Shown here in pieces: positions 3,315-20,917 of a stretch of DNA of 64,000 nucleotides. The stretch is from Aphelidium insulamus (lineage: Eukaryota > Aphelidiomycota > Aphelidea > Aphelidiaceae), in the NCBI GenBank assembly GCA_036784855.1, contig JAZDSV010000021.1:154001-218000 (forward strand). The letters are read 5' to 3'. A program made the position numbers and the translations under genes. The notes beneath the pieces are model-generated. The model made no database searches. It was given only the letters and a program-made list of their open reading frames with translations, and had not been told where the DNA came from. Each line of letters opens with the position of its first letter. The first letter of the stretch is position 1.

Positions 3315-3971
3315 CTATGTATCGCGCGTATGTTCTATATGGGCGTGCGTGGTGAGCCCCGGCTACGATCTGACTCGGTAGCCAGGCACCTCACACATGT
3401 TTGTCATGTGTGACGGGTACACTGCACAGGAGCGCCTAAATAAGAGAGAATGGAAATGTCTTCACGTTGACGAATTCATCGCGACACTGAATAGACGCGA
3501 GGAACAGATATAGTGAAAGCCAAGATATCGCTCTGTGACGGCCCGAAAGCAAAAAGCGCGCACAGGAATAGTACTCGCGCCTCTTGCGACAGATGTCACA
3601 TTATATACACGTCTACATACAAAGTATATACGTATAGTGCACGGCTCACAGTGATGGTACGTTCACAATGAGCAGCGCAAAAGGCAATAGAGTGTCGGCC
3701 GTCCGACAGGGAAACGCATGCACTCGGAAGGGATGCACGCAACCCGTCGGACTGCCGCGCATATATATATGCTTCACTCTGGCATTCACGGTAAACAACT
3801 CCGTCACGGGCAGTGCAGTGAAGCGTAAGACGGAGTTGAACAATAAGGAACGCGTGTGTACAATAGAGAGGAGCGTGCTAAGGTTGCGTGCTTCCCCTTT
3901 ATAGTTGCTTGGGTCAGGGTTGGTTGCGGTTGCCTGAGGTGAAGGTTACGGCAACCTGTTTCAATTGCAGC
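3315..3971. other. Divergent intergenic region, phosphatase / GDSL esterase
   Basis: This 657-bp stretch lies between two divergently transcribed genes and should hold both promoters. Short open frames exist on both strands (for example 3668-3904) but none shows a recognisable domain, splice pattern or codon bias, so no gene is called. Confidence 0.5.
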
Positions 3972-15873: not shown

Positions 15874-17634
15874 ATGACTGCAAGGTTGTCGATGACGTTC
15901 TATGAGTTGCACTATATTTACACTTTGCTATCTAGTTTGCCGGCTCGTCCGTCTATTGAGGAATTAAGCAAGATTGTGTCGGCGTTCAAGCCGTCCGGTC
16001 CCGCCATTGTCCCGGTATACGTCGAGATCTCGGCCGATTTGCTCACACCCGTTTCTGCGTTCCTTAAGCTGTCCGAGGGGCAGCGGCACAGCTTTCTGTT
16101 CGAGTCGGTGGAAGGCGGGGCCAAAATTGGTCGCTACTCATTTCTCGGTGCTGGTACGTGGACTGTCTATGTCCACCAGTGGTCAACTTATGTCGATAGG
16201 ACCCAACGAAATTGTTAAAACAGGCGATGGGTTCGACGTTGGTGGCGACCCGCTCCTATTCCTGGAACCAAAGCTGGGCGCTGTTCAATACATTCCAGTG
16301 GACGGCGTGCCAACGTTCACCGGTACGGGATATGTTTTTTACAACTTGTTTTAAATTTCGCGATAGGTGGCGCCGTGGGTTACGTCTCGTACGATTGCAT
16401 CAAGTACTTTGAGCCGAGAACTGAGCGGGAGCTGTTGGATGTTCTGCACATTCCAGAAGCCATGTTTATGTTCTTTGACCAAGTTGTGGTGTTTGACCAT
16501 CTCCACCACCTGGTCAAGATTGTGGGCCACTGCTCATGTGCGCCAGGTCAAGGGCCGTCTCACGCCAATTACCAACAAGTTGTGGCCAAGCTGGTTGCAA
16601 CAATGAACTTGCTCTCCGTGCCCACCATTCCCTTGCCAAACCAGCCTGCGATAACGCAGGTGAATTTGGAGGAGCGCTCCAACACTGGCCAGCAGGGTTA
16701 CGAAGAGTTTGTTCACAGACTTAAGCACCACATCTCCATCGGTGACATTATCCAAGCGGTGCCGTCGCAGCGAATTTCGCGGCCCTCGACGGTCCATCCC
16801 TTCAACATCTATCGCGAACTGCGCAGCCTGAACCCATCGCCGTACATGTACTATGTCGACATGGGAGACTTTCAGATTGTGGGCGCATCACCCGAGATGA
16901 TGTGCAAGGTGGAAAACTCTGTGGTTACCACGCATCCGATTGCCGGAACGCGCAAACGTGGTCGCACCGCTGCCGAGGATGATGCACTTGCTGCCGAGCT
17001 GCTGGCCGACGAAAAGGAGCGCGCAGAGCACGTCATGCTTGTCGATCTGGGCCGCAATGATGTGAATCGTGTGTCGCAGTCAAACACGGTCAAGGTGGAC
17101 TCGCTGATGAAGATTGAACGGTAATCTTATAGTATTAATGCTATCTCCATTGATATTTACCCAAATGACAGATATAGCCACGTGATGCACATTGTGAGCC
17201 ATGTTTCTGGACGGCTGAGACCCGAGTGCACTCCATTCGATGCATTCCGCAGCATATTTCCCGCTGGAACCGTATCTGGTGCGCCAAAGATCCGAGCGAT
17301 TGAGCTAGTTTCCGAGTGCGAGAAAGAGAAGCGTGGCGTTTATGCGGGCGCTGTCGGGTACTTTGCATATTCGGGTGCCATTGACACTGCGATCGCCATT
17401 CGCACCATGGTGGTCAAGGATGGCATGGTGCATCTTCAGGCGGGCGCTGGCATTGTCAAAGATTCTGTTCCCGAGTCAGAGTACCTGGAAACTGTGGCCA
17501 AACTGCGCTCCAACATGACTGCCATCTCACGAGCAGAAGAACGATACTTATCAACTAACAATATCATCAACAACAACACCTTTAATACTACTTCAACGAA
17601 ACCTCAAACCGAACATACCGCCACCCAGAAATGA
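15874..17634 (+). CDS. TRPE: Anthranilate synthase component I (TrpE)
   Basis: Four exons: 15874-16153, 16200-16322, 16367-17120 and 17172-17634. Together these make an uninterrupted 539-residue frame with introns of 46, 44 and 51 nt. Conserved blocks: FLFESVEGG and GRYSFLGA near the N-terminus (LLES-type Trp-binding region), [56 protein letters not shown] and [18 protein letters not shown]. It makes anthranilate from chorismate using ammonia passed from TrpG. The last about 30 residues are Asn/Thr-rich. Its TGA (17632-17634) overlaps the next ATG (17631-17633) as ATGA. No GT dinucleotide lies between about 17495 and 17630, so splicing cannot bypass this stop nearby. Confidence 0.93.
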
Positions 17635-19106
17635 CTACAGTACTAATCGACAATTACGACAGCTTCACCTGGAACGTCTACCAGTATCTGGTGGAGCTGG
17701 GCGCCACAGTCACCGTGTTTCGCAACGACAAGGTTACCTGTGCCGAGATCGAAGCACTGACACCACGAAACATTGTCATATCACCCGGACCGGGGCATCC
17801 GCGTTCGGCCGCAGTGTCCAATGATGTCATCCGCTCGTTCGCCGGGCGCGTGCCCATCCTTGGCGTCTGCTTGGGTGAACAGTGCATATTTGAGATCTAT
17901 GGCGGCTCCGTGACGCCCATTGACTGTGCTGTGCATGGGAAGACATCGCCCATTAGACATGATGGCCGCGGCATTTTCAAAAATGTACCGCAACACATTC
18001 AAGTTACTCGGTATCACTCACTGGCCGGTGATCCCGCTACGCTGCCTTCTGTGCTAGAGGTGTCGGCACGCACGGCGGACGGAATAATAATGGCCGTCCG
18101 TCACCGCGAATTCATTGTTGAAGGCGTCCAGTTCCATCCGGAATCGGTCGTCAGCGAGTGCGGAATGAAGTTATTTGCCAATTTCCTCAAGTATGAGGGA
18201 GGTCGCTGGGCAGGCATTTCCGAGGAACGAACAAGTCAGAGTACCGCTGCCACAGTTAATGAAACGATACTGGAGCGTATATATGCGCACCGCAAACAGG
18301 CAATTGCAGATAAGCAAGCCATGCCCGGACAGAGTCTTTCGCACTTGACGTCATACCTATCGATGGGTATTGCGCCGCCTGCCATAGACTTTTACGCCCG
18401 CTTGTCTGCCGATCGGCCACAAATTGCAGTGATCGGCGAGGTGAAACGTGCCTCGCCGTCCAAGGGTACTATTGATGCCGGTGCGAATGCTGCTTCACTG
18501 GCGCTGCAGTACTGTCGAGGTGGCGCATCGGCCATCTCGATCCTGACGGAACCGCATTGGTTCCACGGAAGCACAGATGACATGCGGATGGCTAGGCTGG
18601 CACTGGAAAGCGAGCCGAACCGCCCGGCGATACTCTGCAAAGACTTCATCTTTAGCCAGTATCAGATCGCAGAGGCCCGCTTGAACGGTGCAGACTCTGT
18701 CCTGCTTATTGTGGCGATGCTGAAAGAGGAGCCGCCACTGTTGAATGATTTGCTGGCCTACTCGCGATCTCTCGGCATGGAACCTTTGGTCGAGGTAGCT
18801 AATGAGGCCGAGATGCATAATGCCTTGAATTTGGGCGCACGAATCATTGGCGTGAACAATAGGAACTTGCACGACTTTTCAGTCGACATGTCCAATACGA
18901 AACGACTGTCTACGCTAATCAACAATCAATCCATATTGCTGTTGGCGCTTAGTGGAATCACATCTCGCGCCGACGTGGTCGAGTATGAAAAGTGCGGCGC
19001 GGTAGCCGTGCTTGTTGGAGAATCTCTGATGCGCTCGCCTGACAAGGGCAACTTTATTCGCACTTTAATTGGAACACCCACTGGACAAGCGGCAGGACAA
19101 TGCTGA
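17631..19106 (+). CDS. TRPG-TRPC: TrpG-TrpC fusion: glutamine amidotransferase + indole-3-glycerol-phosphate synthase
   Basis: Single exon, 491 residues. The N-terminal half is the anthranilate synthase amidotransferase: [26 protein letters not shown] with nucleophile Cys80, and GVQFHPESV with His169 and Glu171. The C-terminal half is [41 protein letters not shown] and LALSGI. Fungi usually carry TrpG, TrpC and TrpF on one trifunctional chain; here the frame stops (TGA 19104-19106) exactly where TrpF starts. The TrpF ATG at 19100 overlaps this stop (ATGCTGA), one frame back. There is no GT donor between about 19016 and 19125, so an intron cannot join the two frames here. Confidence 0.93.
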
Positions 19107-19869
19107 TCAAAATCTGCGGCGTGACAAACGCTGCCGACGCCGTGGCTGCCGCTCAGCTCGGCGCCGATCTCATCGGTCTGATTATGGTGCCAAATTCGCC
19201 GCGCTTCGTGCCAGAGTCCACCGCCGCATTAATTATCTCAGAGGTCTGACATTATTATTTTTAAGTTTATCAACGATAAAATTGGTATAGTTGAACAAGG
19301 TGTTTCCCCGTCCCCAGGCCGCCACCCTCGCAAAGACTGACTCGGCGATATTTGGTGAGCGGTTGCGACACAGACAGCGCACCCATCCCCTCGTGGTTGG
19401 CGTATTCCAGAATGAAGATGTGGAGCACGTGCAGCGCGTAGCCGACAACCTCCAGCTGGATCTGGTGCAACTGCATGGCGCAGAATCACCCGATTATTGC
19501 CGCGCTATTCGCCAGCCCGTCATCAAGGCTATTGGCATATCACCCGGTGACACTGTTCAGGACACAATGCGGCAGATTGAATTGATGCAGGAGTGCGCTA
19601 GTGTTCTGCTGCTGGACACCAAGGCCACGGATGGAAGCGGCGGTCTTGGCCGCACATTTGACTGGCAGATTGCCGCCGACATTGCCGCCTGCAACATTCC
19701 ATTCCTGCTTGCCGGCGGACTGGCACCCGATAATGTCGGCAATGCCATCACCAAGGTCAGACCGCTCGGCGTGGATGTTTCCAGTGGCACCGAGTCACCG
19801 CAAAAGGGCATCAAGGACCACGCAAAATTGGCAGCATTTATCACCAATGCCACCAAGGCAATACAGTAA
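19100..19869 (+). CDS. TRPF: Phosphoribosylanthranilate isomerase (TrpF)
   Basis: Two exons, 19100-19243 and 19291-19869, with a 47-nt intron (GTCTGA...TATAG; an alternative acceptor is at 19317), giving about 240 residues. It starts [14 protein letters not shown] (KICG motif) and continues LGADLIGLIMVPNSPRFV, LVQLHGAESPDYCR, LLLDTKATDGSGGLGRTFDW, FLLAGGLAPDNV and GVDVSSGTESPQKGIKD. All conserved TrpF motifs are present. It catalyses the Amadori rearrangement of phosphoribosylanthranilate, the step before IGPS. It overlaps the TrpG-TrpC gene by 7 nt and ends only 14 bp before the convergent reductase gene. Confidence 0.93.
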
Positions 19870-19883
19870 CACTGTTACTATGA

Positions 19884-20917
19884 TTACAGCGCACCAAGTG
19901 TGCACAGGTCGCCGTTGCCGTATATGTGCACCGTGCTTGTGGTGGGGCAACTGTCTTCGGGGCGCAGGCGCAGAAACTTGTGCACATCCACCGCTGCGTT
20001 GGCATCCAGGACTGCCCGCTTCTTGACGTCCAGCTCTGCGCCGTCAGTGCCGCTCTGGAATGCCACTGCAGCCTTAATAATTATATATACATCAGTTGTG
20101 TATAATATTAACGAAACCTGCACTTGCCATGGCACGAGCAACTTCGGCGACGTGAACCCCGGCTGACGTCGGCGCCATCCACTTGACCGCGTGTACCAGC
20201 GGTTCAAGCAGTGCTTCCACGGGACGCCGACCGGGCCGTCCCAACAGCATTCCCGGCCGGAGAATGTTTACGGTATCGAAGCCAAGCCGCACCACGTCCT
20301 CCTCCAGCCGGCCCTTTGTCTGCGGGTAGAGGAGCCAGGAGCGCGCATCACTGTTCATGGATGTGACCAGGTGAAAGTGTTGCTGATGTTGTTGCGCGCC
20401 TACGCAGTGCCGGCGAAAGTACTGCGCCCACTTGATCGCGAACCCGTAGTCGATGCGGACAAACTCGGCCTGACAACGAAGTCCGGGTCAGCAAGAGCAG
20501 AGTGAACATTGTCATGTCTGTACTTGCCGCAGAGCCGGCAGCCGACCGGGTGGTGCCGTGACAGCAAAAGAAGTGGCTGGCACAGTGTGAACAGGTGCAA
20601 TGCGGATACGTACCACACCATACCCTACCTGCAGGACGCAATGGCATCGTCGACGGGAAGCGACTCGTCCGGCTTCTCAAAGTCGGCAATGACTGCCACG
20701 CGCTGCAACCATGGTTAGCATCGCAGTGAGTGCCTCACGCACACGCCATACTTGCCACTTTGCGTGTCACGGCATCTCCGCCGGCCATCAGCTCCGACAA
20801 GCTGTCGGGCCGGCGCACCAATGCCACTATCGAGACGACGTGCGGGCATGCCACCAGCTGGCGCATCAGATGCTGCCCCACCGCACCCGTGGCGCCCATG
20901 ACAATGCACCGGGCCAT
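19884..20917 (-). CDS. TIP30/Fmp52-like NAD(P)-binding short-chain reductase
   Basis: Starts at ATG 20917 with MARCIVMGATGAVGQHL, a Rossmann GATGAVG dinucleotide-binding loop. Middle exons read VAVIADFEKPDESLP (about 20660) and SARSWLLYP-type sequence NSDARSWLLYPQTKG (about 20340), where Tyr and Lys form the YxxxK catalytic pair. NILRPGMLLGRPGRRP and ALLEPL then follow. The final exon after an intron at about 20070-20125 adds a C-terminal segment ending HIYGNGDLCTLGAL. The layout is that of HTATIP2/TIP30 and yeast Fmp52. The exact substrate is unknown in most members. At least three introns are implied by frame changes; exact borders near 20500-20600 are uncertain. Confidence 0.8.

Follow-up and report, generated by a model that had tools for sequence, protein, structure and literature searches.

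In bacterial trp operons, TrpE and TrpG adjoin, and the stop codon of one overlaps the start codon of the next. In Saccharomyces cerevisiae, TrpGC, which carries glutamine amidotransferase (TrpG) and indole-3-glycerol-phosphate synthase (TrpC), and TrpF (phosphoribosylanthranilate isomerase) are unlinked genes. We analysed a stretch of 64,000 nucleotides (nt) of contig JAZDSV010000021.1 of the early-branching fungus Aphelidium insulamus (the window; positions count from its first letter), in which TrpE (anthranilate synthase component I), TrpGC and TrpF form a tight array (Table 1). Stop and start codons overlap at both TrpE/TrpGC (junction 1) and TrpGC/TrpF (junction 2), as termination-reinitiation would require, and the downstream frame is −1 relative to the upstream frame in each case. 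An earlier note on this DNA had described these overlaps, with their positions, codons and frames, just as we find them, and its framing of the problem as reinitiation versus internal promoters is upheld. The best explanation, in which we place moderate confidence, combines the array, inherited linkage, a −1 fission of a trifunctional TrpGCF gene, and synthesis of TrpF by termination-reinitiation on the TrpGC message.

Evidence for a probable fission at the TrpGC/TrpF junction

TrpGC/TrpF is the more informative junction. The coding signal follows TrpC to ~19082 and TrpF from 19100, and a single open frame covering G, C and F is absent, the frame being broken at 19100-19106. The linker between the TrpC motif VGESLMR and the TrpF motif KICG is 74 nt long, which is not a multiple of three, and its length is like that of linkers in fused TrpGCF proteins: 21-45 amino acids (aa), with a median of 31, in the 58 of 120 listed homologues where both motifs were found, and 21 aa in P0101, the nearest fused relative. 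PF00697, the F domain of fused GC-F proteins, is present in 105 of the 120 homologues among the matches listed.

In a tree of GC sequences, TrpGC from the window groups with P0001 (66% identity, GC only) at 100/93; the next relative of this pair is the fused GC-F protein P0101 (100/96), followed by P0006 (GC only; 92/80), and the group falls next to chytrid-type rows. P0001 and P0006 end 19 and 17 aa past the LMR motif, which suggests that the split between GC and F is common to these relatives. In a tree of F sequences, the sister of TrpF is the F domain of the fused P0101 (97/81), so both trees indicate ancestry shared with a fused relative. Given these trees, and a linker that has the fused length but is out of frame, we reasoned that TrpGCF probably underwent fission without a spacer. 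The simplest reading is that one ancestral fused gene was later split in this lineage, probably when the reading frame shifted by a net −1 within the C-F linker.

An assembly or sequencing indel at this junction, with an ordinary fused TrpGCF abutted by TrpE, would also account for a linker equal in length to that of fused genes. Because the 19 codons ahead of the TrpF ATG are free of stops in the TrpF frame, a base-count error within ~31 nt would suffice for the frame break. However, this ~31-nt stretch has no homopolymer longer than 3, P0001 and P0006 come from other sources and likewise end shortly after TrpC, and the break leaves an ATG directly before KICG; we consider an indel unlikely. 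The A at −3 of the TrpF start carries little weight, since a purine occupies −3 in just 14 of 30 predicted starts of this genome.

Routes to the downstream genes

GT or GC...AG pairs spanning 36-400 nt and joining the frames were enumerated, and were judged by eye from their coordinates. None of the 136 pairs at junction 1 or the 89 at junction 2 is plausible. Their GT donors sit at or before 17494 and 19014, and their use would delete conserved sequence of TrpE or TrpC. Of the GC donors closest to the junctions, those at 17533 and 19092 have acceptors that delete the start of TrpG or TrpF, and the remainder are unlike GCAAGT. No GT starts within 17495-17639 or 19015-19120. The earlier note had drawn its second GT-free interval as 19016-19125, which in fact holds a GT at 19121, inside TrpF; its view that the frames are not fused by splicing is supported, as neither junction has a plausible fusing intron.

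Programmed −1 ribosomal frameshifting could yield a TrpGC-TrpF (or TrpE-TrpGC) fusion, and both the −1 relation of the downstream frames and the prevalence of GC-F fusion among the listed homologues would suit it. Even so, an in-frame XXXYYYZ slippery heptamer (Y = A or T), the only site type examined, is absent from the final 300 nt of both upstream frames, and a relaxed match occurs once, as TTTGGGC at 18830, 274 nt ahead of the stop; frameshifting is thus very unlikely. Least probable of all is that ribosomes reach TrpGC and TrpF by leaky scanning or through internal ribosome entry. The available text of PMC11892635 favours leaky scanning for green algal bicistrons, but those cases are AUG-depleted, whereas the TrpE message has 28 AUGs ahead of the downstream start and the TrpGC message 29 (each count including the gene's own start). 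We conclude that the downstream genes are unlikely to be reached by splicing, by classical −1 frameshifting or by leaky scanning.

Family searches of the 18-Mb, 169-contig assembly found one Chorismate_bind gene, one IGPS gene and one PRAI gene, all at this locus. TrpF should therefore come from this locus, if the cell makes tryptophan. Most likely it would be translated from the TrpGC message, a GC-F dicistronic mRNA, with ribosomes that terminate at the UGA of AUGCUGA restarting on the AUG 4 nt upstream. For TrpGC, we rate as about equal the same kind of restart, from TrpE, and an mRNA 5′ end of its own in the A+C-rich TrpE tail. A three-cistron nuclear trp operon, in which one capped mRNA spanning 15874-19869 would be read by coupled termination-reinitiation at both AUGA and AUGCUGA, the second site having arisen by frameshift fission, is possible but rather unlikely.

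Reinitiation has precedents: re-initiation mediated by IGG6 in fungi (PMC10352335), 80S reinitiation in selected yeast strains, which falls as the spacer lengthens (PMC11952965), stop-start overlaps in mycoviruses (PMC5972666), and coupled termination-reinitiation reported for human mRNAs with overlapping frames (PMC3923131). At overlapping sites it can be inefficient, and for hypoviruses a frequency under 5% is given (PMC5972666). Such a process would not give equal amounts of two proteins, which weakens the earlier suggestion that coupling suits the 1:1 TrpE-TrpG complex.

Several points weigh against the explanation we favour. In eukaryotes, reinitiation is usually poor after a frame as long as 491 codons. 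Folding of six 100-nt windows around the junctions, in which nested structures only were considered, gave nothing unusual (z from −1.01 to +0.84). The available text of PMC11952965 has the second cistron untranslated in ordinary yeast, and that of PMC10352335 has the first protein only when a stop without IGG separates two frames. As to the fission, the ends of P0001 and P0006 may be frames running into an intron. In the F tree, P0101 is flagged as a long branch, and the pair that it forms with TrpF of this locus falls among unnamed rows and one gammaproteobacterial row (86/82), away from the remaining fungal F rows; F may thus have had its own history, or P0101 may have been fused independently.

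The TrpE/TrpGC junction, linkage and the apparent rarity of overlaps

The end of the TrpE frame resembles a leader. A+C makes up 78% of the 60 nt before the TrpGC start, compared with 53% ± 9 at 30 predicted gene starts, 46% ± 9 at 71 coding sequence (CDS) ends and 65% in the 60 nt upstream of TrpE. The AUG closest to the TrpGC start lies 116 nt upstream, the predicted folding energy of 17541-17640 is 0 kcal/mol, and the coding signal of the TrpE frame declines past ~17529. The TrpE tail extends 46 aa beyond the ET of the C-terminal motif (by hand count), inside the range of chytrid-type relatives among the matches listed.

All of these features except tail length favour an alternative in which TrpGC and TrpF have separate capped mRNAs, from internal promoters in the TrpE tail and inside TrpC, respectively, and the overlaps reflect packing in a compact genome; the close spacing of the TrpF stop and that of the convergent neighbour, 14 nt, favours it too. 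At junction 2, however, no leader-like stretch precedes TrpF: A+C is 57%, the sequence codes for TrpC to ~19082, and the nearest upstream AUG is 71 nt away. The TrpF promoter would have to sit within conserved TrpC sequence. We regard separate mRNAs for both genes as possible but somewhat unlikely.

Chance may have contributed to the first overlap. ATGA is half built in, because 68 of 120 TrpGC homologues among the matches listed start with Met-Thr. When the bases of the 89-nt tail were shuffled in 20,000 trials, a computation made for junction 1 alone, 27% of them closed the TrpE frame no more than 6 nt from the observed stop; for each of the two other frames, a stop fell this close in 1.4%. 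The first overlap alone is therefore not improbable, and taken by itself it is weak evidence. It can be read as a pair of long-standing neighbours in which the TrpE end has come to harbour a leader. The earlier note had treated the two junctions as one phenomenon; we find instead that the first looks like abutting neighbours behind a leader-like stretch, and the second like the fission of a fused gene.

A contig carrying both TrpE and TrpGC(F) occurs in 12 of 19 chytrid-type species and in 0 of 11 other fungi. Pairing was done by hand from 120 listed rows each of TrpGC and TrpE matches, a shared contig being recognised by an identical number of bases, so the count concerns contig sharing only, with gene order, strand and spacing outside its scope. 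The linked species are Phlyctochytrium arcticum, Blyttiomyces helicus (5,652 bases), Fimicolochytrium, Entophlyctis (37,454), Hyaloraphidium, Dinochytrium (65,402), Polychytrium, Gaertneriomyces JEL0708, Gonapodya prolifera, Gonapodya JEL0774 (81,972), Polyrhizophydium and Irineochytrium (28,838). The unlinked species are to be read with caution in both groups, since some compare different assemblies or short contigs: seven are chytrid-type (Powellomyces, Geranomyces variabilis, Zopfochytrium, Physocladia, Cladochytrium tenue and two Batrachochytrium species), and the 11 others are Basidiobolus ranarum, Calcarisporiella, Geosiphon, Paraglomus, Ambispora leptoticha, Radiomyces, Dichotomocladium, Apophysomyces, Cunninghamella echinulata, Mortierella NVP85 and Actinomortierella wolfii. 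The expectation that fungal TrpE is unlinked thus fails for chytrid-type fungi, and the counts suggest that closeness of TrpE to TrpGCF is old in chytrid-type fungi rather than a peculiarity of this genome. The proximity seen here was probably inherited. In sum, the earlier interpretation holds for the overlaps, the frames and the lack of a plausible fusing intron; it gives way on TrpE linkage, on a single phenomenon and on the 1:1 argument.

The best named matches of TrpE and TrpGC are fungi, in agreement with the earlier argument against recent bacterial transfer. Named matches of TrpGC are fungal throughout the 120 listed, and those of TrpE are fungal down to P0152, the first named bacterium among the matches listed being P0153. 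Neither protein is closest to bacterial proteins, and the GC tree contains no bacterial rows; in the TrpE tree, TrpE of this locus and P0123 are unplaced at the midpoint root. A search of bacterial and archaeal genomes gave six loci with 39-53% best-segment identity, none of them informative.

We scanned the window and 100 kb of each of two further contigs (264 kb in all; 1.5% of the assembly) for open reading frames (ORFs), judged coding from their hexamers, whose stop and start lie within −15 to +12 nt. The scan returned 17 rows, 14 with some frame-joining GT-AG alternative and three without, namely TrpE/TrpGC and two short candidate pairs (L014 and L015). One of the 14 is TrpGC/TrpF, for which the alternative relies on a weak donor, GTGCGG, and would delete the conserved TrpC motif VGESLMR. 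Three of six other loci, read by eye as translations, look like single genes broken by introns, which we take to encode CobW-like, P2X-like and ribosomal-protein-S23-like proteins, and L019, L021 and L025 each have a frame-joining intron candidate. On this sample, abutting cellular genes seem to be uncommon, and pervasive overlap in this genome was rejected.

Two loci deserve separate mention. At L024, the other long pair of the scan (contig C2, 1477-6047, plus strand), two long frames overlap as ATGTTGA (3561-3567), a stop-start layout like that of TrpGC/TrpF; from its translated motifs we take this to be a Gag/Pol-type LTR retroelement-like locus. L029 (minus strand, ~856-1617) holds an intron-interrupted protein that resembles a P2X-type receptor.

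Gene models and comparison with known systems

Against NCBIfam profiles, the TrpE protein scores 547.9 bits with TIGR00564 (trpE_most), above the curated cut-off of 517.7. TrpGC scores 223.3 bits with TIGR00566 (trpG_papA; cut-off 121.05), and 251.8 bits with the best TrpC model, slightly under its cut-off of 260. The best NCBIfam match of TrpF, at 201.4 bits, is under its cut-off of 215, and its Pfam PRAI match is well over the cut-off. The TrpF intron, 19244-19317, is our choice from 12 donor/acceptor pairs compatible with an open frame. Near the TrpE start, 15884-15934 (~51 nt, GTTGTC...CTAG) was noticed by eye as a candidate in-frame intron; its removal would take out 17 residues that look unlike TrpE N-termini. 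Downstream, the stop codons of TrpF and a convergent HIM1-like gene are 14 nt apart (19867-19886), and the coding stretch 19884-20093 is probably the last exon of that gene. Matches to Glycos_transf_3 (the TrpD family) and to tryptophan synthase alpha lie on other contigs of the assembly.

Table 1 Features of the trp array and its surroundings (window positions)
Feature	Position	Strand	Description
TrpE	15874..17634	+	539 aa; ATG at 15874; spliced translation
TrpE inferred exons	15874-16153, 16200-16322, 16367-17120, 17172-17634	+	Spliced translation
TrpE inferred introns	16154-16199, 16323-16366, 17121-17171	+	Three, short
TrpE-frame tail, leader-like	17542..17630	+	Last 60 nt 78% A+C, predicted unstructured
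Junction 1, ATGA	17631..17634	+	TrpGC ATG (17631) overlaps TrpE TGA (17632-17634)
TrpGC (TrpG-TrpC)	17631..19106	+	491 aa; intron-free
C-F linker	19035..19108	+	74 nt; end of TrpC motif VGESLMR to Lys codon of TrpF motif KICG
Junction 2, ATGCTGA	19100..19106	+	TrpF ATG (19100) overlaps TrpGC TGA (19104-19106)
TrpF	19100..19869	+	231 aa; two inferred exons, 19100-19243 and 19318-19869
Convergent neighbour	19884..20475	−	HIM1-like match PF08732 in 20095-20475

The locus looks like a fused enzyme caught mid-split without a spacer, one biosynthetic step being left to something other than ordinary scanning. If TrpF is indeed made from the TrpGC message, this would be cellular, non-viral stop-restart translation in a fungus, and it would show that gene fission can be viable at once. 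The locus is a natural test of whether fungal ribosomes restart at the second gene of one message, and the question is testable here with a clean growth phenotype, tryptophan prototrophy. Among the titles listed for papers on trp clusters of chytrids, on TRP1 fission and on fungal cistrons that overlap, we met no locus of this type, which leaves its absence there unproven.

The adjoining, overlapping TrpE and TrpG recall bacterial trp operons. Unlike those operons, this array has introns, fungal best named matches and a TrpG-TrpC fusion, with TrpD-family and tryptophan synthase alpha matches elsewhere. Polycistronic transcripts of fungi (Agaricomycetes; Glarea IGG1/IGG6) also come from adjoining same-strand genes, as may a single mRNA here, but cistrons in Plicaturopsis crispa are spaced, with a mean inter-ORF distance of 364 nt in the available text of PMC4503453, whereas the trp cistrons overlap. 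Overlapping stop and start codons in a fungal setting are described for victoriviruses and hypoviruses (PMC5972666), which differ in being viral; for victoriviruses, the same source gives a predicted pseudoknot upstream of the stop/restart site. Separate TrpGC and TrpF proteins occur in budding yeasts and Kickxellales, with GC-only proteins in Lipomyces, Ogataea and Linderina and F-only proteins in Coemansia and Kickxella; in the S. cerevisiae type of split the genes are unlinked, whereas here they overlap. The trifunctional fungal TrpGCF (TRP1-type) has the same domains in the same order with the same linker length, and differs in that here GC and F occupy separate frames, the stop codon of GC overlapping the start codon of F.

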